Shown here in pieces: positions 11,601 to 63,968 of a DNA stretch of 64,000 nt. Each line of letters starts with the position of its first letter. Positions within the stretch are counted from its first letter, which is position 1. The notes under the pieces were generated by a model. The model saw only the letters and a list, made by a program, of their open reading frames with translations. It did not search any database and was not told the DNA's origin. The stretch comes from Lineus longissimus (taxonomy: Eukaryota > Nemertea > Pilidiophora > Heteronemertea > Lineidae), in the NCBI RefSeq assembly GCF_910592395.1, contig NC_088323.1:14865501-14929500 (forward strand). Direction: 5' to 3'. A program made the translations under genes and the position numbers.

Positions 11601-14600
11601 CCGAGTGGTTAACACTGCTGGCTACCACGCAAAAGGGCCCGGGTTCGATCGTGGGGAGAACCCAGAGCCTAGTGGTTAACACTGCTGGCTACCACCATAG
11701 GGCCCGGGTTCAATCGTGGGGAGAACCCAGAGCCGAGTGGTTAACACTGCTGGCTACCACCATAGGGCCCGGGTTCGATCGTGGGGAGAACCCAGAGCCT
11801 AGTGGTTAACACTGCTGGCTACCACGCAATAGGGCCCGGGTTCGATCGTGGGGAGAACCCAGAGCCTAGTGGTTAACACTGCTGGCTACCACCATAGGGC
11901 TCGGGTTCGATCGTGGGGAGAACCCAGAGCCTAGTGGTTAACACTGCTGGCTTCCACCATAGGGCCCGGGTTCGATCGTTGGGAGAACCCAGAGCCTAGT
12001 GGTTAACACTGCTGGCTACCACGCAAAAGGGCCCGGGTTCGATCGTGGGGAGAACCCAGAGCCTAGTGGTTAACACTGCTGGCTACCACCATAGGGCCCG
12101 GGTTCGATCGTGGGGAGAACCAAGGATTCTATTTCTGGATGAACCGACGTGGCTTTCAAGGGACTAAAATTTCTTGCTCTTTACTGTCCTTGCGAATGAG
12201 ACTTTAAACCATGGTTCCTTGTATCTGGTGTCCATGCCAGAACCAGTTAAAGACTCCACCAAGTAAGAAACATGAATAGCTTGCGTTGACTGAACCTCTC
12301 GCCGCAGTCGGATTCAATAGGCCGTTAAACCCAATTGGCGCATAACTGTAGTGGCATGCATAAACGCTCATCCCGCCTTGGAGGAGGAATACTCCCTGGA
12401 GAAAAGCACCTCCGAGTGTGGAGCAAATGCTGAAGAAGAAGAGGTACTGCTCTGAGTCCCACAGTTTCACAAAACTTTTGACGTTGTCGTGGTCATAGTC
12501 TCTTACCGTGCAACGACAGACCAACCAGGAAGGCATCATAATGCATATAGTGATTTTATTAAATCCAGAAGGCATGAGCCTCAGTTAAAAATACACAATA
12601 AAATTTCCATACAAAACATATGTTTTGTGATACTAATAGATGGCACTACCTGTTGGAGTCAATAAAGTATTGCTAAAAGAACTTAATGTTTCCACAACTG
12701 CTGAAAAAGGTTGGCATAATCCTCTGGTTGGATATGTAACCATCTCAAATAAACCAATGTTAGGCTACACCAATTATTATATCTGTGTAGCGGGCAGATT
12801 TGCCAAAAATCAATTGTACTTGTAGGTGGGAGGAATGAAAATAAAAATAACAACTTGGCCTGAATAAAATTAAAATAATAAAAGTTCTCTGTCATCAGAA
12901 TGACTATTAAGGGCGAGAAATATTCCAAATTTTTATAGTAAAAAAGGCAAAACCAATGTAGGAGGGCCCGCTATACAGATAAATAATTGGTGTGGCCTCA
13001 AATATGACATATAACACTTGTCGTTTCAAAAAATGTGCACACGTCGAACAAAATGACGAAAAAACCTTGTTACACATGAATTTGTCTGTCACATGCGGGT
13101 GATGAAAAACTGTAAACACTGTTTCAAATTATGAAAAACTACGTGAAAGTGAAACATTTCCTCTGCTGAGGGCATCATTGGCAAGCATGTCGGCGACAGA
13201 TTGCGCATAACCAATAGTTACCTGGTTGTTTTTGACATGACTGCCCGACAGTTCATCACGTGGGGGTGACCCTGAAAACATCTGAAATCATCCTAAAAAT
13301 GATGTTGTCGTTTATCATCGTCATTTTGTTTGTTGTGTGCGCTTGGTTTAACTGACAGCTAGGTCTCAAAACACACTGCTCCAACAAATATTGAATGCAA
13401 TATTATACAGACCAATTTTTTAATTTGAATTAATAAGAATATGACAACCTGATAATGAATTCAAGAAAAATGACATTGTCATAACTTCTGTATCAACAAC
13501 TGATTGATGAGAATTTACAACTCGCGGCTAAAACTGCAAAATATTCGCGCCAATTTAGTTTTGCAATTTGCGAACATTTCTTAGACATTCAAACTTTTCA
13601 TGAAAATATTTTGGGGGACTGCGCAACTAACTCTTGTTTTTCCACTCAAGAAATACATTTTCTTAATGTTTATTTCCACTTATCATTGGTATTTGCAAAT
13701 CTGCCACCAGCCCATATGTGTCTGCTGTAAAATAAGGAATAGCAATAAGCCTAGTCACAATTCTCTTTTTGTTATTGTTTCAGAGTAAAGTCGCACACCC
13801 CCACCTCTCTCCCATTGTTGACCTGACAAGTGCTGAAGGAATGCATGGGTTGGGAGAGAGAATCATTGCTGTTGAATCACTGTGAGTATTTTCAAAAAGA
13901 TTGGCCAAATATCCATAAACTTTGTTTCCAATTGAAAGTAGGGAGCTAGGGTTGCTGGGAGTATCAAGGCTAAGATTGTATCTGTTATATTACAACTTTT
14001 TCCAGGCTTTTACGAGTGTTCGAATCCTTTTTATCAAGCCATAGCCATTTTATTTTGCGGTTTTTGAAATTGCATCGCAAAGCGTTTAAAAAAACAGTAA
14101 TTTCAACTACATTTTCTTTTTTGGCCCAGATATTTCACAGTTATCTCTAAAACTAAAATACACTTGAACATTTCAGGGGTTACAGTATGTTGGTGATCCT
14201 GTGTTACTTTTTTTCAGCGTATTTTTGGCGGACCAATTCCAGTTCCTGCAGCCGCACCTCGAGGGGATGATTCCCCAGAACAAGAAGGCGTTCCTACAAC
14301 AGTTCTATTCGCAGACGGTCGGCGTCACGCCCGAACTCCGTCAACCGGTTTACACAGCCGTTGCAGCACGGTCGATTGATTACGATCAGCTAATTCAACT
14401 GATGGCGAGCGTCCGATGGGACATAAAGGACATCATGTCGCAACACAGTACATATGTCGATCAGGTTTTACGAGTGAGTTGATTCACCTGTGGAATCAGT
14501 AACAAGCTCTGCGAGGGTCTTCCACCTCGCAGAGGCAAGGCTAGCCACCTCACCGAGGAAGTCCACCCGTGCCATATTTATATTAGTTAACACTATAAGT

Positions 14601-17600
14601 GTTCAGTATTTTCAAAATTTTAAATTCTCAAATACAGTGGAACCTCCCTTAGCGGACACCTCTCTATTTAGAACAATCTCTCTATTAAGGAGACTTGTTT
14701 CGGTCCAAAATTGGTGGTTTCCCTTCAATTTGACCACTATAATGATGAAACCTCTCTATTAAGGACAGCAGTTCTCAGTCCTGAGGGTGTCCGTAATAGA
14801 GAGGTTCCAGCTTTTATCCATTCTCTCTATTTGTGTCAAGCACTTACTTCGCAAAAGCAGGTCACATTTGAATGTGTGAACTTTCGTTGGGCTGGTGATA
14901 ATGTTCCCCAATTAGTTTTGCTTAATTTTTGTTCCTTATTCCAGGATTTCCACATTTTTGCCATGAAGTTGGACAACTTGTCGAAAAGGGTACCGATGCC
15001 CTTCGTTGTTTCATGCTGTCTCTGGGAGCTGTGTATCACGCTCGCGAATACCACCTTTGTTGAAGGGTAAGTTATCAAGTGGAGAATATTCAGGCCTTTC
15101 AGTTATATTGAGTTCACAGTATGTGGTAACTACGAATAGAAAATCTGATTGAAATAACTGTTACAAGCTTACATAAACAAATTAAATGCCAAAGTGTGTC
15201 ATTTTACTTTAGCGCGCCACAACAATATTGGGCAAACATTTCCAGCTTTATTGTAACTTCACAACTGCAGAGATTAACCCTTTCGCTGTGGAAGTTTCTT
15301 TTGACCGGCGCTGCCATGTGCTGACAGTTGATACCAATAATGAACAGTGGAGCTTACTTTTAGCGAACAGTCAAAACTATTCAAAATTTTTCGCCATCTG
15401 TACTATTAGGATGAAACTAATCCTCCTCAAATGCGTTGGGAGAGAAAGTGCTGGTGAATTGATATTTTGGTAGGGCATGACGTGCTATGCCTGTCACCTG
15501 ACTAATATAAGACCAAGTGTCATGACATGCTGTGCTTGCATCCACGGCAAAAGTAGAGTTCAGCCCTCTTTAAAAAATAAACTTGCAACACTGCACCAAA
15601 AACAAAAAGAATCTGGAACCGGAACTTAAACTTAACGTCACAGAAAGCACAGTAAAACAAACAGTTTTCTGTTGCACAACTCAAGTTTAAAATAAATGAC
15701 TTAACTACCGCTCATGACAACAAAACTTAGAAATAATACAGGAAGCGTTACGAATATAAACAGTCATTTTGCAAATACATTACATAGAATTCATGAAATA
15801 CACAAGCGCAATACAAAAAATACCGAGTCAGACAGCACATTCTTATCAAACTAGCACCTCCAGCTTCGAAAAAATTTAAAGCTCAACTCGCCTGCGGAAA
15901 ATCGTGACATTTTTGGAGGTGTATTTTTTCTGGAGATTTTAGTGATGCTTAGACAAACGCTGACTTGAAGGCGCAAAACTTTCAACTATAATTCGATCAT
16001 TACAGGCTCACGTTGTTTGTTTTCTTTATTGGTTATTTCCATGAAATCGACACACGCCGCCTGAGAAAATTGGCCTTATTTAGCAGATTTGTGATGGTTG
16101 AAACAATACACATATCTCTCAGTATTCTCATATGACAAACTGAGGACACATAATTAACATGCAGCGTTTGGGAAAATTGATACACACACTAATTGCAAAC
16201 AGATGGATTGGTGTCACCTGGTGTTAGAAATAGGAAACAGATGCAGTTGGACAAATAGTAAATATAATTGAACAACAGAAACAACGTGATATTTAGTCTA
16301 TCACCAAGTGAAATGAGCTAATTTACCGACTTTTTGAAGCGTTTTACTACACCAAGTGGCCCATGCCTCCTCCCCAATGGCTGCATCTCCCAAGTGGCCC
16401 ATGCCTCCACTCAAATGGCTGAATCTCCCCAATGGCTGCATCTCCCAAGTGGCCCATGCCTCCACTCAAATGGCTGCATCCCCCCAATGGCTGCATCTCC
16501 CAAGTGGCCCTTGCCTCCACTCAAATGGCTGCATCCCCCCAATGGCTGCATCTCCCAAGTGGCCCATGCCTCCACTCAAATGACTGCATCCCCCCAATGG
16601 CTGAATCTCCCCAATGGCTGCATCTCCCAAGTGGCCCATGCCTCCACTCAAATGGCTGCATCCCCCCAATGGCTGCATCTCCCAGGTGGCCCATGCCTCC
16701 ACTCAAATGACTGCATCCCCCCAATGGCTGCATCTCCCAAGTGGCCTATGCCTCCACTCAAATGGCTGCATCTCCCCCAATGGCTGCATCTCCCAAGTGG
16801 CCTATGCCTCCTCCCCAATGGCTGCATCCCCCCAATGGCTGCATCTCCCAAGTGGCCTATGCCTCCACTCAAATGACTGCATCTCCCCAATGGCTGCATC
16901 TCCCAAGTGGCCTATGCCTCCTCCCCAATGGCTGCATCCCCCCAATGGCTGCATCTCCCAAGTGGCCCATGCCTCCACTCAAATGGCTGAATCTCCCAAG
17001 TGGCCCATGCCTCCACTCAAATGGCTGCATCTCCCAAGTGGCCCATGCCTCCACTCAAATGGCTGCATCCCCCCAATGGCTGTATCTCCCAAGTGGCCCA
17101 TGCCTCCTCCCCAATGACTGAATCTCCTAAATGGTTGCATCTCCCAAGTGGCCCATGCCTCCACTCAAATGGCTGCATCTCCCCAATGGCTGCATCTCCC
17201 AAGTGGCCCATGCCTCCACTCAAATGGCTGCATCTCCCCAATGGCTGCATCTCCCAAGTGGCCCATACCTCCACTCAAATGGCTGCATCTCCCCAATGGC
17301 TGCATCTCCCAAGTGGCCCATGCCTCCACTCAAATGGCTGCATCTCCCAAGTGGCCCATGCCTCCTCCCCAATGGCTGAATCTCCCAAATGGCTGCATCT
17401 CCCAAGGTCATGGTGTGAAATTTCTCAGTACACTTTTACATACAGAGTTTCTCTTACAGTAAATGAAACCCTTTCTTCTAGAGGCATGACATTTTCACAG
17501 ATGAATAAATGATACATAAGTGAAATGATTGGCAAAAAAAATCATCGTGTCATCGTAAATGAGTGGTCTTGTATTAAAATACATTGTGTTACATGTAGTT

Positions 17601-20600
17601 CAAGCATTGTACTAGGTCCAAGGTAGTGTACTGGGGACTGAAAAAACGTGACGTAGCCGAAAATCACCAACTGAGTGCTGACAAGATTTGTCCAACTTGT
17701 TACTTCACCTAGTGACTCTGCCTCCTCACTTCTCCAATGCCAGTGGCTCCACCGCGCAATTATTAGGACAATACTCAAAACATGCAGCATGTAACCATCA
17801 AAAACTAACCAACAACTTAATCCAGGATTTGGCTGACAGAGCTAGCATCAGGACAAATGTCCCCCCCCTCAAGATTGCATTTCCTGATATTTGGGGCCAT
17901 TTTAAGAATGCTTGAGTTCTCGGAACTTCCTTCAACCTTACTGTCCTGGTTTATAGGCAGCGATAGAATTTCTAATGCTGTTGCGTCATTCGGATCCAAA
18001 TCCAGGCGACATGGTGGTTCGTCGAGGTTTGCATTCACATCTCCTGGTGGCTCTTGGTTCAGTTCCTCCTTGTAAAGTCCACCAACAAAGGCCTTCATGT
18101 GTGCTGCCACCTTGTGAGATTTAGCTGCATTAATGTTAACCCCTTGTAGCAGGTTGACCTTGGGCATCCAGAATATTGGGATGGATCCACGTGAGAGATA
18201 GTACTCCAGATGTGAGTACAGTATGTAGGCCATCTCGACCAGGGGGAGGGGGGGCTCATGGTGTAGGAAGTCTTTCACGTTGTGCATAAAGACAGTTTTC
18301 AGAAGATAACTTGTGAGGAATTTGTCGACAAAATGTAACATGCGGTCATCTTTCACGACAACTTGACAAACGACCGGATCCCTGAGACATTTTGCCAAGA
18401 TATAGGCATTCTTTACCCTGGCTGGTAAGTCCTTGATGTGCGCGACCTCGAGCTGAGAAAATGTGACACGGAAGAGTCTCTCACGTTCAGCTTCTTTGAA
18501 AGTCTTTCCGAATGAGCTCCCTTGGTGTGGAGGTCTTACAACCAACTGGTAGCCCTGTTTCTTGAGGTCATCATATCCCATCATCCAGGTTTTCTTAATG
18601 GCACCATCCGGCCAGTCATTTACTTGAAGCACGGGTACAACGTCTATCGACACCACCAGACTGCGCTGTTCGTCCGCCTTCCATCTCAATTGGATGACCG
18701 TGCTTGCACTGCCACCACCAGTAACAGCTGAAGGGATTGAAACGATCATGTCATCACTTGAATCAATGAAAGACCAAAAAAAAGAATGAGCCAACTTACT
18801 GCTATCAAAAATATCCCATCCGTCACACCTTCTGTAACCATGGCCAACTTCTGTAATCTTACTTGTGGGAATATAACCTTTGCACTTGACTGTGAAGTCA
18901 AATTCATCAGGGAATCCCACCTTGGTTAATTCGGCTGAACCTCCAGTGAGTGTCACAATCCATGAGAGTTTAGCAAGGATCGCCCTAATTTTGGTGTCAA
19001 TGGTTACGTTCAGCTCATTCAGTTTATCCTGATTAAGGCTCTGGACCGAACCCAAACCTGGGAATTTGATCAAACTGGAAGTGGAAATTCTTTTCCTCTC
19101 TTCTACTTCATGCGGTGAAAGGGCCATTCTGAAGATGTCCCAGTTAATGTCTTCACTAAAAGAAAGATTGTGGTGATCCCTCAAATCCTCTGCATGTTGG
19201 TTTAATCCAGCAATCAGGAGATACTTGTAAATATCAATAGATCCACTTTGAGATAAACATTGTGCAAGTTCGACATTGCTGATGAAAGACAATGTTGCAC
19301 CCAATGAGTGGAGCATTCGGACACATTCAAAATGACTATGTGAGATAGCTGTGGCTAAAGGAGACTGTCCATTTTGACCTACATAGTCTAAACCTGGTAT
19401 TTTGTTCATTTTCGCTAGAAAAATTAAAACCTCTTTCTGTCCATATCTCGCTGCCAGCAGTAACCATCTTTCAATGGTTTTCTTAAGGTCGGCTTCATCA
19501 GTGATATTTTTAAAAAAGTATTCAATGACATTAATCTGTCCGTGTATCACACAGTTGTCCCGAGAAGAAAATTCATCATTATCCTTACTCGCAATGTCTG
19601 CGCCATGTTCAATTAGAATCTGGACAATTTCTGTTTGACCTACTGTTGCCGCTTGGTTTAACGGAGATTTCCCCTTGTTATCTTTACTCTCTATATCAGC
19701 TCTCTGTTGGTGCAATGTCTCCATCGAGTTTTCACAATCTATAGTTGTGTGGAGTGGGCTGTGGCTGCTCAGAACACTTGCCTCGGTCATTTCACCTCTT
19801 TCTAAAAGAAGTTTCACAACACTCCCATGTCCATTATCTGATGCAGTCCAAAGGGGAGATTGCCCACTAACTGATTTACTCTCTATTTGTGCTCCTCTGT
19901 CTAGGAGGAGTTTCACAACCCTCCGATGTCCATTAAATGATGCAATCCAAAGGGGAGATTGCCCATCAACTGCTCCTCTGTCTAGGAGGAGTCTCACAAC
20001 AGTCTCATGTCCATTATCTGATGCAGTCCAAAGGGGAGAACGCCCACTAACTGATTTACTCTCTATTTGTGCTCCTCTGTCTAGGAGGAGTTTCACAACA
20101 CTCTCATGTCCATTCTGTGATGCAAGGAAAAGGGGAGAATACCCACCAACTGTTTTAATCTCAATCGGTGCACCAAATTTTAAGAAAAGTTTTGCAAAAA
20201 TGTGATGTCCTTTCCGTGATGCAGTAAGAAGGAACCGTTCCCGGCAGCAGCACAGTAATAGGACCAATGCCACGACCATAATCAAGGAAAAGACAAAAAT
20301 CCAGGTCAGAACGAGGTCACTATACGTCAACGCGAGCGGGACCATTGACGCGGGCGGGACCGCCGACGTGAGCGGGATCGTTGACGCGAGCGGGACCGTC
20401 GACGCGAGCATACCATCATCATCCATTGCATCAGTCACTGTTTTCTCCTTCACATCCATGACGACATCTCATTCGATGTCTGTAGCCCTCTTATCAAACA
20501 GGAATTAATTATCAGTGTCAGATAAGCCTTCTTTGGCTCGCGAGTTGTGTAATTCGGTGCCGGGTAAATGAAATATATATATATATCCTTCTGTGGTTAA

Positions 20601-23600
20601 AGTGGGCTTTACCAGGTCTTCCTTCACAATCTTGAACTTGAGGCCAGCTCAGCTCTGTAAATCAAATAATTACAAAACCTAACACATTTGTTTATTTATT
20701 TTTTTCAGGTATAGATTAGAGATTTAATCCATGCTTGCTTTTTTAAAAGATCAAACCGTCTTTTTCATCATTTTTTCGGTTGCTCGTTCAACAACATTCA
20801 TTGCAGGTCACTGCTACAAATATATATATCTCGATTGCAAAAACCCTTCATCAAATGGTATCATGGCCCAAGCCTTAGGAGATTATCAAATTTAGATAGG
20901 AAAAGGCATTGGTTAAAAAAATTAAAAAGAAGAAAATTTTTCATGCAGCAGCAGGCTGTTGTGCAGTGCTATACAGATGTCTTCTTCTGCATTCTGATTG
21001 TTTTAGATGCACACCAAACAGACATTGGCAACAGATTCGGCTGTCCTAGGGAGGTCTCCTTCCGAGCCCCACAGCTTTGTGATCAGGGTGGTGTCCTTTG
21101 GTCAGTATTTTGCTCTATTCAGCTGCCCTTTGTATGTAATGTGTCGATGTAATTAAGCTGGTTGAGGGGTCCCTGTGCTAAAGCCTATTTTAAGCCCATG
21201 TTTGACAGACCGGGCTCAACCTAATTGCGTCGACACAGTAAATGTGTGTTGAAAAGAGTTTGCAAAAATGCTAGAACTAGTTACAAGCGTCATTACCAAG
21301 AATGAGGGTTGTGGATTTTAGGGTTCGCATTATGGGGTTAAAGCAAGAACATAGCACTTGACTCTTACCTTTGTGTTCTTTAATGCATCTAGGATTCGTT
21401 CTTCTTAAGTTTATGCTGGCATCTATGTGAATTCGTGGGGGTAAATCTTGTTGACAATCATTTGCAGCCTCTATCAAGGTCAGATATGTGTTCCTTTGAC
21501 TTCGATTGACTCGCGTATTCTGCTTTTATTGATGAGTTATAACTGTTTGAAGAATATAAAACGTGGTGGTTAGCATGATGGTTTGTTTAAGGATAGGTAT
21601 TTCTGAGGTCGAGGTTTGTTCTTCTTCTGTTTCATAAGTAAACAATTTTTCGGAAGACCGGGTATATTTTGCAAGCCTCTCGCTGAACAAGCATGATTTT
21701 TGCCATGTTTGGAGAGCCACTTGCCGAACAGCACTGAAAATCAACCCAGTTTGGCAAGCCCCGCTTTAAATATCAATGAGTTCGGCTCTCCATTTAGGGC
21801 AAAAAAGGACTTTAGGACTTTAGGACTTTCGAACTTTCGAGGTCTTCCTACGTCTAAACATTTTGCAGATTTACGAGATGAGTTTGTAAATAAAATTCAA
21901 AAATATTGTGGCAGAGTTCGTATCACTGGATTGAGGTTAGTCCTTATGAATAAGGAGTACTTGTCAATCCCACAGCTGTCCACCAAAAATGTAGCGGTAA
22001 AAGGGCTTATAATATTTGTCACCGTATAAACTTCGCAACTCTGAACTCGAACCCAAAGACTAAACCAACTAAGATATATACATTATTTATTATCCACGTC
22101 CCTCTAACCTCATATCTACAACCAACACTAAAATATTACAAAAATAAGGCGCACAATAAAATATCAACAAGAGATCATATAAAAGAATCTTACCATGCTG
22201 TAAGGTCAAGGGTGAAGTCAATTAGAAATGCTCTGGCGCTTTTCAAGAGAAATATCTTGTTTAGCTACAGAGGGTAAAGGTTGGTTTTCTGGATCTGCCA
22301 GGACTTACTAAAAACATATGAACATCATCATTTATACCTAATTGCACACACCCCTAATGGGTAAATAGCCTAGCCCAAATATCAGGCTCTGAGCCAACTA
22401 GCACTCAGTAATTAAGGAAATAACCAATCAGTACACAGCAGCATCAATACAAGATTATCAGACAGGGCCAAGGGCAGGGGCCTAGTAACCAGCTGCTAAT
22501 CAGGAAGATCATGAAAGGGGTCAAACAGCTTAAAAGATAGAGATTATAAAACAATGGAAAGGGGCAATTAAGAAGGAAGGTGTTGAAACTTATAATGGTT
22601 AACGATCCTGGGTGTCTGGGTTCACCAGGGCTAGAGAGAAACACAGAAATAATAATTACAGATATAGTAAGCAATTCCTAATATTGTCACATTGATAAAT
22701 TACCTGTATGTATGAAATTCCAAATTAATTGGACCTGTAATATGACGGATATGATGAAGTCGTCATCCAAGTCGTAGGCAACCACCAAAACTTGGAATAC
22801 GACGTCATAATTTCCTCCTTATGCACAGGTCCGATCTGGAACTTTAAAATCCTTGTACAGTGGAACCTCCCTTAGTGGACACCTCTCTATTAAGGACAAC
22901 CTCTCTATTAAAGACACTAGTTTTGGTCCCAAGTTGGTTGTTACCATTCAATTTAACCTCTCTAATCAGGACACCTCTCTATGGACACATTCTGAACTGA
23001 CAAGGTAGTGCTGTCCTTAATAGAGAGGTGTCCTGATTAGAGAGGTCAAATTGAATTGAAACAGCCAATTCGGGACCAAAACTAGTGTCCTTAATAGAGA
23101 GGTTGTCTTTAATTTAGAGGTGTCTGCTAAGGGGGGTTCCTTTGTACAGAGTCAAGAATCTACACAGTACACATGCCATAGTTGAAAGGACAGATGGACA
23201 TCTGATGCCACAACAACTTGACCGAAAAGAGGCTGCGTTCAGACGTTCGCGATGAGGGCATATTGAAATGGCCTTATTATGTAAATGTTAAAACGTGTCA
23301 AATGAAACAGCCAAAATATACAAACCATGCAAATGCCCCACTCATTTAAATTTTCCAATTTCTTCAGATAGGCGAGCGCCAAAACATTTACAACAGAGGG
23401 GCGAACATTTGATGCTGTTAGACTTGGCGCTAGGGCGGATACCTGAAAGTTTGTAACAGATGGATGGGCGGTGATGCTGCGATGATTGCCCCAATGCAAA
23501 AATGGTGTCCTCTGAAAACCCATTCATTTGAATCATTCCTATTTACGACAGTAGAGTGGGGCGTATCCCTGAATGTGTATACAGCCCATTCATTCTTTTA

Positions 23601-25008
23601 AAACCCATTCATTTTAATTTTTCCAATCTCTTCAGAAATTCGAGCGCCCATAAATGTCCATCAGATGAGCAGGCGGGGATGCTGTGATGCTGGGGTGGAT
23701 ACCTGAATATGAATACAGTGATAATTGTATCACTGCAAAAACGGTATCCTCTCTATAAAAAACCCATTCATTTGAATCTTTCCAATTTCTTCAGATATGC
23801 TAGCGCCAAAAAGTGTACAACAGAAGGTAGGGCGTTGATGTTGTTAGACTTCCAGCAGTTTTTGATGAAGCTTGAGAAGTTGACAGAACTGCGCCCAATC
23901 CCAGAACGCGAATATGTTGAAACCTACATCAAGGCCTACTACCTTCCCGAGGACCAGTTAGAGACCTGGGTCAAAGACCACAAGGTAATTATAGCTTAGT
24001 TCAAACGCTTTAATCAATGGAAAAATTCATTCTGAGCGCAACTGCTCTCGAGAAATGATGATTTGTGCAGAATATTAGCCCGTATGCTAATTGCATATGT
24101 AAAACATGTCACATCATGACGACGCTATACTTCTGGAGCTTTATGCAACGTCATTTGTCGTGACATTTCTTCAATGACGCGAAACCCCTGTTCAAAAACG
24201 GTGTCGTAAAATATCCTATGCTGTTGTATCGGGTCTTTTTCTCGCACGGCTGTGGTCGGAATGAACTTTTGAATGTATCAAGTAGCTGGGACTTGATGTA
24301 ACAATCAATTTGAGGAAGGTTTGATAACATTTCGAGAGCAATTGTGAAAATAAGAGTGATTTTCAAGATTTCGGAACATCTTGAACTAATCTAAAGTCTT
24401 TTCCTATCTCCCTGTTGACTCTTTCTTGTTATAAAACTGAAAGATAGACATATAGATGCAAGTTTCAATCTTGGAATCATGGATGACCCATGCTAGACTC
24501 TATGGTATTTCTCACAAATATTAGAATAACTCCTTATAAAAAACAAACTTGGAATCATGGATGATCCATAGTAGACTCTTACAACTCTATTACTCACAAA
24601 TATAAGAAAAACTATAAAAAAACAAACTTTGAAGTTTTGGCCCAGTCGCCCAAAAGAAGCTTATGAAAGCGACTATAGGGATATATAGTGGAACCTTCCT
24701 TAGCGGACCCCTCTCTATTAAGGACACCATTTCTAGTAAGGACACTAGTTTTAGTCAATAAAATTAGTTGTTTCCATTCAATTTCACCCCTCTAATCAGG
24801 ACACCTCTCTATTCAGGACAGCACTTGTCAGTTCCGAGAGGTGTCCTTAATAGAGAGGTTTGTCTGTACATGTAAAGTCATTTCCTCGTTTCTCTGTTTC
24901 CAGGAATACACAACAAAGCAGATCATATCGCTCGTCAATTGTCTACCGCACATCAACAAGAGAGCGCGACAACGCATCATCGGGGTCATCGAAGAAACAC
25001 GCCGATAA
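8613..25008 (+). CDS. VPS50: VPS50 (syndetin) 3' half, with one damaged exon
   Basis: VPS50 replaces VPS54 in the EARP tethering complex with VPS51, VPS52 and VPS53, and acts in endosomal recycling. Exons: 8613-8658 (incomplete), 10890-10916, 11452-11574, 13784-13881, 14218-14473, 14945-15066, 23795-23984 and 24904-25008. From 10890 to the TAA these give 307 open codons with matching phases and AG/GT borders. Recognised segments: [104 protein letters not shown]. These cover the syndetin C-terminal (DUF2451) domain. The first exon ends abruptly in an inserted repeat. The roughly 17 residues the family has before VYSFF were not found, so this copy may be non-functional despite clean later exons. 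No exon for the middle of the protein is seen between 4.7 and 8.6 kb; BBS12 lies there instead. Confidence 0.92.
8659..8804. mobile_element. 146-bp MITE interrupting a VPS50 exon; contains telomere-like triplet
   Basis: Inverted ends (ACTTTAGAATTCCCGATCGG at the left; the right end reads inward as ACTTTAGAATTACCGATCGG) bound a 146-bp element. It contains three CCCTAA units at about 8730. It begins right after the VPS50 codons for KPISE, and the reading frame reaches a TAG formed by the element end. No clear target duplication is seen, and sequence after the element does not resume the exon, so a deletion may have accompanied insertion. Confidence 0.75.
9126..10817. repeat. 35-bp minisatellite, ~48 copies, each with a CRE-type site
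   Basis: The consensus unit contains GATGTGACGTCATG and AATAGGCCCGCTCTGTTC. The palindrome TGACGTCA is the full cAMP-response element, the binding site of CREB/ATF factors. Variant units carry TGATGTCA or TGACATCA, and differ also at CCCGC/CCTGC and TTCGTG/TTCATG. It lies in a VPS50 intron, ending about 70 bp before the 27-nt exon at 10890. Function is unknown; regulatory activity is inference only. Confidence 0.95.
11599..12300 (+). mobile_element. SINE with eight tandem tRNA-like heads
   Basis: Eight units of 65 or 67 bp start at 11599, 11666, 11731, 11796, 11863, 11928, 11993 and 12060. Each holds an A-box-like AGCCGAGTGGTTAACACTG or AGCCTAGTGGTTAACACTG and a B-box-like GGGTTCGATCGTGG. 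These resemble a class II (Ser/Leu-type) tRNA but lack a complete cloverleaf. After 12122 the sequence changes to a SINE body (AATGAGACTTTAAACCATGG ... GTGTCCATGCCAG) that recurs at 53140-53240. The array starts 25 bp after the donor of VPS50 exon 11452-11574. Confidence 0.85.
12301..13783. other. VPS50 intron, no recognised feature
   Basis: AT-rich intron. The 123-codon minus-strand frame at 12204-12575 overlaps the SINE body and resembles no family I know. I see no RNA gene or conserved exon before the acceptor at 13781-13783. Confidence 0.6.
14633..14810. mobile_element. Palindromic TA-flanked MITE family, copy 1
   Basis: First of at least eight copies in the window. The family starts TACAGTGGAACCTCCCTTAG and is built from CCTCTCTATTAAGGACAC and its reverse complement around a spacer (TTGGTCCCAAATTGGTTGTT in most copies). 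A full copy folds into a long hairpin and ends in the inverse of its start. It is flanked by TA, as for mariner-type MITEs. This copy sits in the VPS50 intron between 14473 and 14945. Confidence 0.85.
15067..16345. other. VPS50 intron, 5' part, no feature recognised
   Basis: Unique AT-rich intronic sequence. The 81-codon frame at 15228-15473 shows no family resemblance. Confidence 0.55.
16346..17407. repeat. Compound minisatellite in VPS50 intron
   Basis: Two short modules alternate irregularly: GGCTGCATCTCCCAAGTGGC and CCATGCCTCCACTCAAATGG or CCATGCCTCCTCCCCAATGG. Units are 36-56 bp, with roughly 20-25 copies. Long Pro/Trp-rich frames on the plus strand and Gly-rich frames on the minus strand follow from units free of stops and are not genes. 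The array ends about 400 bp from the 3' end of the antisense gene at 17817. Confidence 0.92.
17817..20459 (-). CDS. Membrane-anchored ankyrin-repeat cGAS-like (Mab-21 family) nucleotidyltransferase
   Basis: Single-exon 880-residue ORF with ATG at 20459-20457 and TAA at 17819-17817. Residues 1-48 are acidic, then Ser/Pro/Val-rich. Residues 49-71 form one transmembrane helix ending in CCCRER, suggesting a cytosolic remainder. Residues about 75-395 hold nine or so ankyrin repeats ([26 protein letters not shown]), some degenerate. From about 480 to 800 is a Mab-21/cGAS-type domain: GGS at 506-508 as the nucleotide-binding loop, then FPDEFDF with acidic E519 and D521, and a third acidic residue D606 in VSIDVVPVL, so all catalytic positions look intact. 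[10 protein letters not shown] (715-724) matches the Mab-21 C-lobe motif. No cGAS-type zinc thumb (H, CC, C) is visible. cGAS-like receptors make cyclic dinucleotides on sensing nucleic acid; product and ligand here cannot be read. It is antisense within the VPS50 intron 15067-23794. Confidence 0.85.
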   Translation of the reverse strand: MDVKEKTVTDAMDDDGMLASTVPLASTIPLTSAVPPASMVPLALTYSDLVLTWIFVFSLIMVVALVLLLCCCRERFLLTASRKGHHIFAKLFLKFGAPIEIKTVGGYSPLFLASQNGHESVVKLLLDRGAQIESKSVSGRSPLWTASDNGHETVVRLLLDRGAVDGQSPLWIASFNGHRRVVKLLLDRGAQIESKSVSGQSPLWTASDNGHGSVVKLLLERGEMTEASVLSSHSPLHTTIDCENSMETLHQQRADIESKDNKGKSPLNQAATVGQTEIVQILIEHGADIASKDNDEFSSRDNCVIHGQINVIEYFFKNITDEADLKKTIERWLLLAARYGQKEVLIFLAKMNKIPGLDYVGQNGQSPLATAISHSHFECVRMLHSLGATLSFISNVELAQCLSQSGSIDIYKYLLIAGLNQHAEDLRDHHNLSFSEDINWDIFRMALSPHEVEERKRISTSSLIKFPGLGSVQSLNQDKLNELNVTIDTKIRAILAKLSWIVTLTGGSAELTKVGFPDEFDFTVKCKGYIPTSKITEVGHGYRRCDGWDIFDSSKLAHSFFWSFIDSSDDMIVSIPSAVTGGGSASTVIQLRWKADEQRSLVVSIDVVPVLQVNDWPDGAIKKTWMMGYDDLKKQGYQLVVRPPHQGSSFGKTFKEAERERLFRVTFSQLEVAHIKDLPARVKNAYILAKCLRDPVVCQVVVKDDRMLHFVDKFLTSYLLKTVFMHNVKDFLHHEPPLPLVEMAYILYSHLEYYLSRGSIPIFWMPKVNLLQGVNINAAKSHKVAAHMKAFVGGLYKEELNQEPPGDVNANLDEPPCRLDLDPNDATALEILSLPINQDSKVEGSSENSSILKMAPNIRKCNLEGGDICPDASSVSQILD
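20460..22690. other. VPS50 intron upstream of the antisense gene, no gene recognised
   Basis: On the minus strand this is the 5' flank of the cGAS-like gene. A TATATATATATATA tract at about 20573-20586 lies about 115-125 bp upstream of its ATG and could serve as a TATA region. The rest is AT-rich with short frames (20835-21152, 21700-22029) that resemble nothing known. Confidence 0.45.
22690..23640. repeat. Segment duplicated at 41980-43190
   Basis: Nearly identical sequence, including AAATTAATTGGACCTGTAAT and GATGGACATCTGATGCCACA, occurs in the same order at 41980-43190, where about 390 bp of other sequence is added. It includes a palindromic MITE and a pseudo-exon copy of VPS50. A segmental copy of VPS50 intron has thus moved about 19 kb downstream. 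Confidence 0.85.
22855..23149. mobile_element. Palindromic TA-flanked MITE, copy 2 (full hairpin)
   Basis: Starts GTACAGTGGAACCTCCCTTA and ends GGGGGGTTCCTTTGTACAG; the two halves are near-perfect inverted repeats. Confidence 0.88.
23368..23700 (+). pseudogene. Two degenerate copies of the start of VPS50 exon 23795-23984
   Basis: TTTCTTCAG followed by a variant of the exon start occurs at 23368 (about 70 bp similar, running to a TTAGACTTGGCG that mimics the exon's TTAGACTTCCAG) and more weakly at 23636. Both precede the real exon and are out of frame or diverged. They look like tandem duplicates of the 3' splice site and exon start. Confidence 0.7.
24685..24872. mobile_element. Palindromic TA-flanked MITE, copy 3
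   Basis: Same family as 14633-14810, in the last VPS50 intron, ending about 30 bp before the final acceptor. Confidence 0.8.
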
Positions 25009-58507: not shown

Positions 58508-61500
58508 CCTGATGTCAAGTCGCCTGTCGATGACCTTTCACCTCAACACTTCGCTGCTGATCCTGCGGTCTCAAAGTTCAAAGTTCACGTGAGTATGGCT
58601 AACCTAAAATGGCGGTCGCACTATTCCGAACATAACAGACTAAACCTGACTTTCAGTTTTTGTATAAAGATTTAAAACTTTTTATGACCAGGAAGAAGAG
58701 AATTATAATGCTGCTTCTTCGGAAAGTTCATCACATTTGCTGATCTGTTTTAGTTTGGAATGTAACGAAATTACCAATTATTCCACTCTTGTCTCTCGGT
58801 ATTTCCTCACAGGCTCAGACCAGTCAGGAGTTCCCTAATGACCCCCAAGCTGACCAAGAAGCGATAGATAGCATTGAAAAGGATTATTTCAATGGAGATG
58901 ACTTTGACGCAAGTCGTGCTGAATTGGATGTAAGTCTTGTTACCTTGTTTTGCCCTGTCAGAATAACTGGACTTCTGTACGGTAAAAAGCGTGTGTACAA
59001 ATTCCTTGGGCAGGGCGTAAAAGCTGCTGTATATATGTTGACTATGCGCCACCCATGAGAGGAGTGTGCAATATATCGCCACTCTTTAATGGGAATTAAC
59101 ATCATAACGTAACTAGCGATAAAATGCAGAAGTGGCAATAGAATGTACAATGTCAGCCCTCATTTCATCAATTTCAGAAACTCCCTGATGTTCTTGAGCT
59201 TCAAGCGATTGATCAGGACAGGAGCAAACTACGCGGTCAGCTCCGGGCCGTCTCCAAGAAGGTGTCTGAGTTAGTCCTGGAGAACCACCCCGCATATGCT
59301 GCGGAGTTGATCCGAGTCATGGAGTTACAGCAGTCACTCCAGACGGCAAGCGTTGTCTGCGCGAATGGCAGAAGGTGAGTGCTGTACAACTGCAATCAGG
59401 GATGTGAAATTTCTGATTTTAGGTGGATTTCAGAACTTTTTCTCATACTTTATGCAGAATTTGGTAACTGGCAGGAAAAGAGCACTTTCTCACCTCTCCG
59501 TGAATCTTTGAATTTTTTCAAATTTTGCCAAAAATAAGCGTTTAAGAGCTTTTTTTGTGAAAGTGAGTGCTGTTCAAAGGACAAGATTTTTACAAGAAAA
59601 AGTTTCAGATTTTTTTCTCGAGTTATTTGCATTCTTCAGCATTGTTGTCTGTAGCACTCATGTATTTTAAGTGATTCCTCCTTGTTCAACCTTCGTCAAG
59701 AAATAACTGTACAGAGCCGAAAATGTCAAAATTCAATGTAATACACCCAAACGTTGTTTGTGCTCCAGAGCCCAAACGATGTTTGTGCTTCAGAGCCCAA
59801 ACGATGTTTGTGCTTCAGAGCCCAAGCGATGTTTGTGCTCCAGAGCCCCAAACGATGTTTGTGCTCCAGAGCTCCAACGATGTTTGTGCTCCAGAGCCCC
59901 AAACGATGTTTGTGCTCCAGAGCCCCAAACGATGTTTGTGCTCCAGAGCCCCAAACGATGTTTGTGCTTCAGAGCCCAAGCGATGTTTGTGCTCCAGAGC
60001 CCCAAACGATGTTTGTGCTCCAGAGCCCCAACGATGTTTGTGCTCCAGAGCCCAAACGATGTTTGTGCTCCAGAGCCCCAAACGATGTTTGTGCTTCAGA
60101 GCCCAAGTGATGTTTGTGCTCCAGAGCCCAAGCGATGTTTGTGCTCCAGAGCCCAAGCGATGTTTGTGCTCCAGAGCCCAAACGATGTTTGTGCTCCAGA
60201 GCTCCAAATGATGTTTGTGCTCCAGAGCCCCAAATGATGTTTGTGCTCCAGAGCCCAAGCGATGTTTGTGCTCCAGAGCCCCAAACGATGTTTGTGCTCC
60301 AGAGCCCAAGCGATGTTTGTGCTTCAGAGCCCCAAACGATGTTTGTGCTTCAGAGCCCCAAACGATGTTTGTGCTTCAGAGCCCAAACAATGCGGACAAA
60401 TTATGAATGGACTTTAGTCATGTACATTTTATAATTCTGAAATTTTACACCATTCAGTTACCTCTTATCCGGCTTTGTTTGTACTGTGTCAAGGTATTTG
60501 TCCAATGCGAAAGAGGACTTCACCACAGCCAGCCTGGGCCTCCTTGCCAACTATAGGAAGAGACAGCAGTTGGTTGGACTTCTCAAATCGCTGAAGACCA
60601 TCAAAACTCTGGTACAGTAGAACCTCTTTATTAAGGACACCCTCGGGACTGACCAGTGCTGTCCTTAATAGAGAGGTGACCTGATTAGAGAGGTCAAATT
60701 GAATGGAAACAACCAATTTGGGATCAAAACTAGTGTCCTTAATAGAGAGGTTGTCCTCAATAAATAATAGAGAGGTTGTCCTTAATAAGGAGGTTGTCCT
60801 TAATAGAGAGGTTGTCCGTTATAGAGAGGTGCCCACTAAGGGAGGTTTCACTGTATGTTTAGAAGGCATATTTGTTCAGCTGCTTGACTTGGAAGCGATA
60901 CAAGTCAAAACAAAAAAATAACTCTATGACATGTCATCAACCCTTTATTGTTTGCCTCATCGGAGCACTCTTATTAGTAAACAACCTTGGTAAACAGACA
61001 GGGTTTGTATTTTAAGGTAAATTAGAAATTATTGGGTTGTACTTATAATTCCCTCGTTGTTGATGAACTGAATGTGTTTCTGTTTTCAGCAAAGGACAGA
61101 CATCCGACTTCGTGAGATGTTGGAAGAGGAGGATTATCCTGGAGCCATCCAGTTGTGTTTAGAGTGTCAAAAAGCTGCCAGCACATTCAGACACTTCCAC
61201 TGCATCAGGTAACTATAGAGTGTCAAAAAGCTGCAAGCACATTCAGACACTTCCACTGCATCAGGTAACTATAGAGTGTCAAAAAGCTGCAAGCACATTC
61301 AGACACTTCCACTGCATCAGGTAACTATAGAGTGTCAAAAAGCTGCCAGCACATTCAGACACTTCCACTGCATCAGGTAACTATAGAGTGTCAAAAAGCT
61401 GCAAGCACATTCAGACATTTCCATTGGATCAGGTAACTATAGAGTGTCAAAAAGCTGCAAGCACATTCAGACACTTCCATTGCATCAGGTAACTATAGAG

Positions 61501-63617
61501 TGTCAAAAAGCTGCAAGCACATTCAGACACTTCCATTGCATCAGGTAACTATAGAGTGTCAATAAGCTGCAAGCACATTCAGACACTTCCATTGCATCAG
61601 GTAACTATAGAGTGTGAAAAAGCTGCAGGCACATTCAGACACTTCCATTGCATCAGGTAACTATAGAGTGTCAAAAAGCTGCAAGCACATTCAGACACTT
61701 CCACTGCATCAGGTAACTATAGAGTGTGAAAAAGCTGCAGGCACATTCAGACACTTCCATTGCATCAGGTAACTATAGAGTGTCAAAAAGCTGCAAGCAC
61801 ATTCAGACACTTCCATTGCATCAGGTAACTATAGAGTGTCAAAAAGCTGCCAGCACATTCAGACACTTCCATTGCATCAGGTAACTATAGTAATGTTCAC
61901 CGTGCTAAGAATTTGTTCATATTACTCCTCTCAGATTTCTGCCTGAAATTCATGAGAAGCCTTCCCATCCGGTCGTGCCGGCTATAAGGGAAATGGCAGT
62001 TGGTTGATGCTTTTGCTGCGAGTGACGTGCTAGGCATGTCATGTGCATGTCACCACATGTCACCACATGTCACCACATGTCACCAAAGCTTTGTGTACCT
62101 GGTGCATGCGCAGTTGGAGAGAAGGTGTTTTTTGTGGAGACTAGTTTCGGACAGTCGGTGTTCAGTTTGTGTTCTTGGGACGTTTTCATTCGGGAGTTTT
62201 ATTTGAGGCAAAGTTATATTTATAAAGTCTTGACACGAATTGCTAAACGGGACATGAGCCTGGCCGGCCAGCATTCATTTAAGGGTTTCATGTTTTATCA
62301 CGAGGAGACTCGAGACGTGTATTCAGCTGCATGGGTTGCATCATCCGTACATGTTGGAGGTAACGCCCGTGGTTATGGAGACAAAGCAGTAGTGGTTTCC
62401 CACAAGACGGAGAGTCGTGTCGTGAGTTTATCGTGACTAAACTGAGCATCTTTTCAACCTTGGCGTGTTAGTGACGTATATAGTACGTCATATATTTCTA
62501 AAATTGGAACACATCAGGTCTTGGTGGCTGCCTTTCCATTCCATTCCATTCAATCGAGCGCTCAGTAGCTGCTCATTGAAACCCCAGATTGATTTCTGTG
62601 GAGACCGGGATGATGAAAATAATGTAGTCCCAAAAGCGCATTGAGCAGGGAACCTGGAAATGCGCTATATAAGAACTCAATTATTATTATTATATTATTA
62701 TTATTCCTCACATCAATTCTTTTCTCCCCTTGCAGTGAGCTGAGTTCAAAACTCAAGGACACTTTGGAAATGATTGAAGAGGCGCTGGATGTGGCTCTGT
62801 CTAAAACATGTAACAACTTTGATACGCGTCATTACGAGAAGGTCCAGACTGCTTATAGGCTGCTGGGAAAAACACAGGTGAGTTGTCTTGGAAGATTTTG
62901 CCATGTCTGGTTAGGTTCCTGTATCTGACCTGCTGGGTAATGGGTTCGATACATTGAGTGATATGAATAAAGACCAGCAAATGCTTTTATCTAAAACTCC
63001 ATGTACATTTACACTAGGCCTTTCTGTACAAAATTGTAGTAAAAGCATTTACTTGTCTTTATTCATATCACCCCTTGTCTTTCTTCGTGTATCTCCGCAA
63101 ATGTGTCAAGTTTGATTCAAAAATACCATCATTTCCATCAGAAAAATTCGCCCCTATCCAGCCCCTCGAAAGAATTCAACGAAGGGCTCCAATGAAGAAA
63201 GTTGTTTTGACTTGATTTGCTCATCTAATACCTGGAAAATATGTTTTTGCTCGAAGTTAGATTAACCAACCTTTGAAGAATTTGGCCCAGTAATTTTCGT
63301 ACTGTAGCCCAGTAGGATTTATGGACATTTACTTCTTTAAAAAACCTTTAAGTATACAGCAGTATCAGATGAAGTGTGTCACCACCCCTAAAAACTTGTT
63401 GGTAATCGAGGTTTTTACTTGTTTTGGCGCCAAATCTTTGAAAGTTCATCAAAATCGTCTTTATTGTTTGTTGCAGACTGCCATGGACCAGCTGAATATG
63501 CACTTTGCTAGCGCCATTCATAACACCGCGTTCACAATCGTCATCGGTTATGTTGAACTCTGCTCAGGGACGGAAGACAGCAACTTTCAGAAAAGACAAT
63601 ATCTGGATTTATGCGAG
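58508..63617 (+). CDS. VPS50: VPS50 (syndetin) 5' half, seven consecutive exons
   Basis: Exons 58508-58588, 58813-58929, 59178-59374, 60494-60611, 61090-61208, 62736-62877 and 63477-63617 join to 305 open codons with matching phases, and the last donor (GTGAGG) continues beyond the window. Recognised segments: [107 protein letters not shown] and [11 protein letters not shown]. This is the N-terminal Vps54/syndetin-like helical domain that contacts the other EARP subunits. The start exon is missing. The donor of exon 60494-60611 is split by a transposon and that of 61090-61208 is followed by 12 repeats of itself, yet coding is intact. Together with 8613-25008 the window has both ends of VPS50, in reversed order. 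Confidence 0.94.
59752..60390. repeat. 25/26-bp minisatellite, about 25 copies
   Basis: Unit GATGTTTGTGCTCCAGAGCC plus CAAAC or CAAGC, in the VPS50 intron after exon 59178-59374. All six frames stay open for long stretches because of the unit, giving spurious Cys/Arg-rich ORFs. Confidence 0.95.
60613..60855. mobile_element. Palindromic TA-flanked MITE, copy 8, inside a VPS50 splice donor
   Basis: The element body runs from CAGTAGAACC at 60615 to GGTTTCACTG at 60853, flanked by TA at 60613-60614 and 60854-60855. The base before the first TA, G60612, starts the intron. Removing the element and one TA leaves GTATGTTT, a standard 5' splice site. The present donor reads GTACAG. Confidence 0.88.
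61163..61888. repeat. 56-bp array that duplicates an exon end and its splice donor
   Basis: GTAACTATAG recurs at exactly 56-bp steps from 61209 to 61881 (13 occurrences). Each of the 12 full units also carries a copy of the last ~46 bp of exon 61090-61208 (GAGTGTCAAAAAGCTGC ... TGCATCAG). The exon end is the first member of the array. Confidence 0.96.
62047..62086. repeat. Short ACATGTCACC repeat, four copies
   Basis: Ten-base unit, CACATGTCAC, in tandem. The 131-codon frame that starts here (62041-62436) has no recognisable family and lies in a VPS50 intron. Confidence 0.85.
62628..62706 (+). mobile_element. SINE 3' tail with ATT microsatellite
   Basis: AAGCGCATTGAGCAGGGAAC and TGCGCTATATAAGAACTC match the SINE tail type at 3190-3235, followed by an ATT repeat as SINE tails often are. 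It lies just before the acceptor of exon 62736-62877. Confidence 0.7.
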
Positions 63618-63633
63618 GTGAGGAGTAATTCTT

Positions 63634-63968
63634 TAAAGGGTAACTCGTGTCAAATTTCACCACATAATGTTTTAGCTGTTTTTGACAAATGACTACGTCA
63701 CTTTCTCATCAATCGGTAAGGTTTTCGAATCGAAATGCACATTTTCTAGAAATTAGTGGTTTAATCCCGCCCGGACAGCTCGCTTCAATGCCATTTTCGT
63801 TGATGACGTCACAACATGAACATTTTCGCGGTCGCGGTGGTTTACATTCAGCGATTTTATAATAAATCTAATCAAAAAATGGAAAATTTGAGCTTTACAT
63901 TTGTGATCAAATTTTAAAAACGGACGTATTTCCGCAAAGTTGTAAATCACATCATAGTATCACTTTAA
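63634..63968 (-). mobile_element. MITE-like repeat, copy 2 (inverse of 704-1055)
   Basis: Begins 17 bp after the donor of VPS50 exon 63477-63617 (CTTTAAAGGGTAACTCGTGT) and ends CACTTTAAG. It contains TGACGTCA at about 63805. Moderately diverged from copy 1. Confidence 0.65.

Follow-up and report, generated by a model that had tools for sequence, protein, structure and literature searches.

According to a survey of cGAS-like receptors (cGLRs; PMC9980059), 87% of cGLRs are single-module enzymes, and fusions of ankyrin repeats to a cGLR enzyme module are published in animals, for example in Stylophora pistillata. The main text of that survey does not describe a cGLR with a transmembrane anchor; where the word transmembrane appears, on two occasions, it refers to STING. 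Here we describe a gene from the nemertean Lineus longissimus that likewise joins ankyrin repeats to an enzyme module like that of cGAS, the human enzyme that responds to DNA, and, in front of both, encodes a hydrophobic segment predicted to be a transmembrane anchor. It lies in a stretch of 64,000 nucleotides (NC_088323.1, positions 14,865,501 to 14,929,500), which we call the window and number from its first letter. On balance, if by a modest measure, we find it probable that the gene encodes a membrane-anchored cGLR. An earlier note on this DNA had named no characterized receptor with such an order of parts. Since ankyrin-cGLR fusions are in print, only the anchor is new in that order; a literature search at title and abstract level found no transmembrane ankyrin-cGLR among the matches listed. 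Nor was there a paper on this gene family in nemerteans among the titles and abstracts listed.

The enzyme module belongs to the Mab-21 superfamily, shared with Mab21L1/2, MB21D2, ITPRIP and MiD49/51 as set out in PMC10732462. With a Pfam Mab-21 score of 24.9 bits and with its ankyrin repeats, the worm protein falls outside the developmental Mab21L1/2 subfamily. Members of that subfamily match the Mab-21 model strongly, and ankyrin repeats are not known from any of the superfamily members just named. The MiD and ITPRIP proteins are membrane-anchored, and MiD49/51 use the Mab-21-type fold as a binding scaffold. Mab21 and Lrba/Nbea are reported to be a conserved pair of nested genes. Compared with oyster Cv-cGLR1 (PDB 8gjw) and cGAS, the worm protein reads TGGS where these have [QT]GS, lacks the cGAS zinc thumb, and carries in front of the enzyme a hydrophobic segment plus some 400 residues made up of ankyrin repeats and linkers; its gene is nested in a VPS50 intron and was duplicated with VPS50.

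Domain order and predicted active site

The gene occupies window positions 17817..20459 on the minus strand as one open frame from ATG to stop, with 880 codons for 880 amino acids and no internal stop; the runner-up frame in the window has 224 codons. An ankyrin-repeat region extends over about residues 76-430 (19170..20234, minus strand, outer limits estimated), in which Pfam Ank_2 matches seven stretches (8.9e-59). The Mab-21 and Mab-21_C matches have 24.9 and 27.8 bits, both barely above the cut-off of 24.1. All of these lie downstream of the hydrophobic segment, in agreement with the order anchor, ankyrin repeats, cGAS-type domain read in the earlier note. For residues 439-820 (18000..19145, minus strand) an AlphaFold2 model was obtained with a predicted local distance difference test (pLDDT) score of 80.6 and a predicted template modeling score of 0.84. 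Its best structural matches by Foldseek and VIA-align were cGAS, which bears out the nucleotidyltransferase fold proposed before. The 50 structural matches listed included no Mab21L or MiD structure, which counts as no evidence against them. The nearest solved sequences were Cv-cGLR1 and cGAS, with MB21D2 at 3e-5; the profile alignment to Cv-cGLR1 covers profile positions 36-341.

Paralogs were collected by a whole-genome search with 122 matches listed and 52 of 481 candidates scored. At least 40 places, the window copy among them, cover the enzyme module, of which 35 are stop-free and five have a stop inside the match. The comparison set consists of 29 frames, namely the window copy and 28 of the other 39 places. 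By alignment, the putative catalytic acidic residues are E519 (18903..18905; 28 of 29 rows), D521 (18897..18899; 29 of 29) and D606 (18642..18644; 29 of 29), all on the minus strand. The complete triad is kept in 28 of the 29 rows, with sequence differences of up to 73% in a 21-row alignment (A1) that excludes L013, which has stops, and L022-L028, which have long inserts or spans. These residues are found where the earlier note had placed them and align with those of cGAS. The same is true of the position of GGS 506-508 (18936..18944, minus strand), the counterpart of the GS motif, for which paralogs outside a close group of seven read GS. The cGAS zinc thumb is an H-C-C-C cluster in the C-terminal lobe. 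Residues 661-790 contain just two cysteines (691 and 698) and no cGAS-type Cys/His cluster, so the reported absence of the thumb stands and the worm protein differs in this respect from cGAS proper.

The survey gives the cGLR active-site motif as h[QT]GS - X8-20 - [DE]h[DE]h - X50-90 - h[DE]h (PMC9980059, section 5). The window protein agrees with this motif in its two acidic elements and its two spacings, and in the first element in relaxed form only; once h[QT]GS is relaxed to G[GS], the motif fits 19 of the 29 frames, this protein included, some at the wrong G. Judged from sequence and predicted model, two of the three criteria of the survey place the protein in the cGLR family: homology over the nucleotidyltransferase core and C-terminal helix bundle (Mab-21, Mab-21_C and the 8gjw profile alignment), and a predicted structure like that of known cGLR/CD-NTase enzymes, the motif agreeing in relaxed form only. 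As far as the modeled fold and active site can tell, it works like a cGLR. Of the 29 rows, 24 have an enzyme module with a predicted isoelectric point under 7; that of the window copy is 8.7. Because the survey links nucleic-acid sensing with positive charge in cGLRs (PMC9980059), many family members may sense something else, perhaps via their ankyrin repeats.

Gene start, putative anchor and VPS50 host

The earlier description of an intact 880-residue frame was correct as to the uninterrupted reading from ATG to stop and probably not as to length. The first ATG is ATA in the sister copies L009 and L010, and the stretch is missing in L011, whereas the ATG of M12 (window position 20426, 11 codons downstream) is present in all four copies. 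The database protein P0003 from L. longissimus, which matches L011, begins at the equivalent of M12. The protein is therefore probably 869 amino acids long and encoded by 17817..20426 on the minus strand. A retrogene is a possible origin of this intronless gene.

Ahead of the hydrophobic segment, an 18-bp minisatellite (20325..20409, minus strand) codes for a low-complexity tail. The segment itself, residues 54-72 (20244..20300, minus strand), is the best 19-mer with a Kyte-Doolittle value of 3.20; the strong hydrophobic stretch previously read as a helix at about 49-71 is thus upheld with shifted limits, as a call made from Kyte-Doolittle hydropathy and a charge count. Lysine and arginine number zero in residues 12-48 and five in 73-92. 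By the positive-inside rule, which assigns topology from charge asymmetry, the ankyrin repeats and the enzyme module are predicted to face the cytosol. Hydrophobic 19-mers are also encoded by L009, L010 and L011, with values of 2.69-3.47 over the four copies in the coding frame, as opposed to at best 1.32 in other frames of the same N-terminal DNA. The underlying DNA has diverged strongly: between the window and L009 a gapped match spans the stretch, and its 213 columns include 69 mismatches and 30 gap columns, compared with 9 mismatches and 3 gap columns over 332 columns of adjoining flank. Similarity of the anchor DNA is weak but above 200 shuffles for the pairs window-L009, window-L011, L009-L010 and L009-L011, and barely so for L010-L011 (35 vs 34); for the window-L010 pair no similarity above 200 shuffles was found.

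The host gene was traced by its plus-strand Syndetin_C exons, located at 14168..14478 (exon within an open stretch, profile positions 15-99, 1.5e-27), 14942..15064 (99-140, 0.0021, 18.2 bits), 23790..23987 (142-204, 5.1e-29) and 24895..25005 (204-234, 1.6e-5, 25.1 bits), the last being the final VPS50 exon. The second and fourth are short and below the whole-protein cut-off, yet fill the profile in order. Since exons on the opposite strand flank the frame, ending at 15064 and starting at 23790, the gene lies antisense within the VPS50 intron 15064-23790, as the earlier note had it. VPS50 exons stand on both sides of the L011 unit (L037, L038), and the two downstream exons (L039) were found on the downstream side of the L010 unit, the side covered there; these exons show 97-100% identity at the protein level. 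VPS50 and the nested gene were therefore duplicated jointly.

A second VPS50 copy in the window, represented by N-terminal exons (Vps54_N) at 59142-63689 on the plus strand, makes this a tandem VPS50 array. These exons precede the next nested-gene copy at C16:14943728, and L009 would accordingly be located inside this second VPS50 copy. The exon at 61072 has its end repeated in many copies as far as about 61.9 kb, spaced 56 bases apart as judged from the frames. On another contig, the stop-bearing copy L013 (C7:11025065) still has some of the 5' flanking sequence of the VPS50-nested unit, at about 91% identity.

Fast change in residues 522-590 and competing explanations

The segment of residues 522-590 (18690..18896, minus strand) is hypervariable, with 4.9-12.3% mismatch against 0.9-1.4% in the flanks. 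Nonsynonymous divergence (dN) exceeds synonymous divergence (dS) in 16 of 21 pairs of a young seven-copy group; all five exceptions involve L013, and without it the count is 15 of 15 pairs of six copies. L013 was kept in these pairs and in the active-site residue counts, and left out of the likelihood and clustering tests. For residues 591-815, dN/dS is 0.14-0.59 in all 21 pairs. In codon columns of the six copies, residues 519-578 hold 48 amino-acid and 9 silent changes, and the whole domain 110 and 41; the density of the densest 69-codon window was equaled in none of 5000 permutations. As a neutral yardstick we used flank mismatches relative to the window copy, counting mismatches only and alignable parts only. 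The block stands above the flanks in L010 (9.76% vs 1.37%, Fisher p 2.5e-10), L011 (12.25% vs 1.13%, p 5e-16) and L009 (4.90% vs 0.91%, p 3.2e-4), and above the rest of the coding sequence significantly in L010 and L011 and not in L009 (p 0.14). All p-values for the block are nominal because it was chosen after seeing the data. In the profile alignment it passes through the part of cGAS that lies between acidic residues two and three, a part that includes nucleic-acid contacts.

In a membrane-anchored receptor, the hydrophobic segment would cross the membrane, leaving the short tail on the outer or luminal side and both the ankyrin repeats and the enzyme on the cytosolic side. The enzyme would be switched on when a ligand or partner binds to the ankyrin repeats, to the variable face of the nucleotidyltransferase lobe, or to both, and would join two nucleoside triphosphates to a cyclic dinucleotide. 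The worm STING could then read this signal and start a defense, while pathogens or their inhibitors would drive the diversification of residues 522-590.

The points that weigh against such a receptor are taken here together with the explanations they favor. That it acts as a sensor, inserts into a membrane, binds a ligand and is expressed are things that we infer, and the worm STING is known here from one STING_LBD exon (L040, C11:2036599-2036703) barely above the cut-off (27.4 bits vs 27). A full-length single-sequence structure prediction had a pLDDT of 39, was not used and gave no arrangement of the parts. The protein might be an active but soluble ankyrin-cGLR that uses no anchor, either because it starts at M61 or because the hydrophobic stretch is a by-product of the minisatellite. 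This appears unlikely, although it has several observations on its side. The database prediction P0002 for the same locus (820 amino acids) begins at residue 61, within the hydrophobic segment, and thereby cuts the anchor, so that the gene models disagree on this part. The DNA around the segment is repetitive with fast turnover, and in L010 it forms a long valine-rich repeat, so that the topology of that copy may differ. A strong N-terminal hydrophobic segment occurs in 4 of the 29 frames; among the other 25, eight have their N-terminal side truncated by the limits of the sequence analyzed and L013 is a broken frame, which makes them uninformative, and the 16 paralog frames with an uncut N-terminus have no strong hydrophobic segment (L026 touches the threshold at 1.61). 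On the other hand, the window copy and its three sisters keep in-frame hydrophobicity despite DNA divergence far greater than that of the neighboring sequence, and P0003 includes the segment. It is rather improbable that the protein has the Mab-21-type fold as a binding scaffold and makes no nucleotides. The earlier note had argued that an intact active site speaks against a structural-only relative, an argument that proved unsafe because Mab21L1/2 have complete putative active sites although whether they synthesize nucleotides is not understood, as described in section 5 of PMC9980059. Moreover, the window protein has glycine in place of the GS-motif serine, and the strict cGLR motif was matched by none of 29 frames and none of 24 proteins. 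Conservation of the triad across the divergent rows and the proximity to Cv-cGLR1 and cGAS rather than MB21D2 argue for an enzyme.

The variation in the enzyme module also leaves room for other views. Gene conversion or recombination between paralogs, instead of diversifying selection, could have produced the hypervariable block, which we regard as a shade less plausible than a soluble protein. Tandem copies make good substrates for this, and divergence above that of the flanks extends to the remaining coding sequence compared (2.95-3.27% vs 0.91-1.37%), an excess that selection confined to one block leaves unexplained and that leaves room for recombination. In a codon-model likelihood test (IQ-TREE) p was 0.031 for 522-590, 0.054 for 591-815 and 0.56 for 439-521, the first value being nominal, one of four tests and without a direction; for residues 439-521, too, six of the 21 pairs have dN/dS above 1. 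Yet the seven group copies offer no close donor (the nearest being 5.9-13.5% away), nor do three rows of another group (38.6-46.1%), and imported DNA should raise dS too, whereas dN exceeds it. That the gene is an unexpressed or decaying copy seems very improbable. The five places with a stop fit decay, as does dN/dS over the whole enzyme domain, which is 0.57-1.09 in the C16 group, 0.78-0.89 in three young C12 pairs and 0.45-1.43 in the C8/C17 group with three pairs above 1; constraint on the enzyme domain has been weak since duplication. Against decay stand the 35 stop-free places, the window frame intact over 880 codons, and the constraint on residues 591-815 between copies.

Only tentatively do we extend the reading of a membrane-anchored receptor to the set as a whole. 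The copies nested in VPS50 would be a tandemly amplified group of diversifying, membrane-tethered ankyrin-cGLRs that make a cyclic dinucleotide at the membrane, with VPS50 carried along. The anchor (fast-diverging DNA of the same hydrophobicity), the ankyrin array (of variable length) and the hypervariable cGAS-like lobe face would turn over independently. If true, second messengers would be made at the membrane in an anchored ankyrin version, which would provide a direct test of ankyrin repeats as the sensing part. In the window copy, part of the enzyme module changes unusually fast, as is common in immune sensors. The duplicated units bring along their own neutral and constrained yardstick in their near-identical flanks and VPS50 exons, so that a ligand- or inhibitor-facing cGAS-like surface might be read from recent duplicates.

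Paralog family and neighboring sequences

The genome contains a large ankyrin-Mab-21 family, mostly as single long open frames. This family, the joint duplication with VPS50 and the hypervariable segment go beyond what the earlier note had described. The Lineus and metagenome ankyrin-Mab-21 proteins (P0003-P0023) have the same order of ankyrin repeats followed by Mab-21 and mostly correspond to long single genomic frames; the relatives outside VPS50 units with an uncut N-terminus differ by having no strong N-terminal hydrophobic segment, and some carry extra parts, such as a ZZ finger in P0018 and a further upstream exon in P0006 (compared with L019). Eleven metagenome proteins (P0010-P0014, P0016, P0017, P0019-P0021 and P0023) match the enzyme module and are ankyrin-labeled, eight of them also Mab-21-labeled. 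A tree was built from 30 rows, including eight of the P proteins (P0012 not among them) and leaving out rows longer than 430 residues (L022-L028). Since six metagenome proteins branch in it among Lineus lineages, the family is probably older than L. longissimus. A search for homologs of the enzyme domain with alignment A1 returned two proteins, both from Lineus.

With the Pfam Mab-21 model, 25 places in the genome scored over the cut-off, including a separate gene at C9:15559249 and short frames. The former is taken to be Mab21L-like from its 154.8 bits, as compared with 24.9 for the window protein, and the short frames may be stand-alone cGLRs.

In a second group of ankyrin-Mab-21 genes, on C8 and C17, the enzyme modules of L022-L024 and L026-L028 are interrupted between acidic residues two and three by a long insert in which neighboring enzyme sequence is repeated; L021, which also belongs to this group, has no such insert. 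P0018 from Lineus (1330 amino acids) is an ankyrin-Mab-21 protein whose ZZ zinc finger is C-terminal (46.2 bits). A PF00275 (EPSP synthase) label on P0008 was taken as false, as it lies inside the ankyrin repeats (278-310). At L014 (minus strand), a 1002-codon open frame lies opposite a shortened ankyrin-Mab-21 copy. Just downstream of the window gene, a minisatellite array of about 1 kb with a 55-bp unit (16364-17405) yields long plus-strand open frames that resemble repeat translations.
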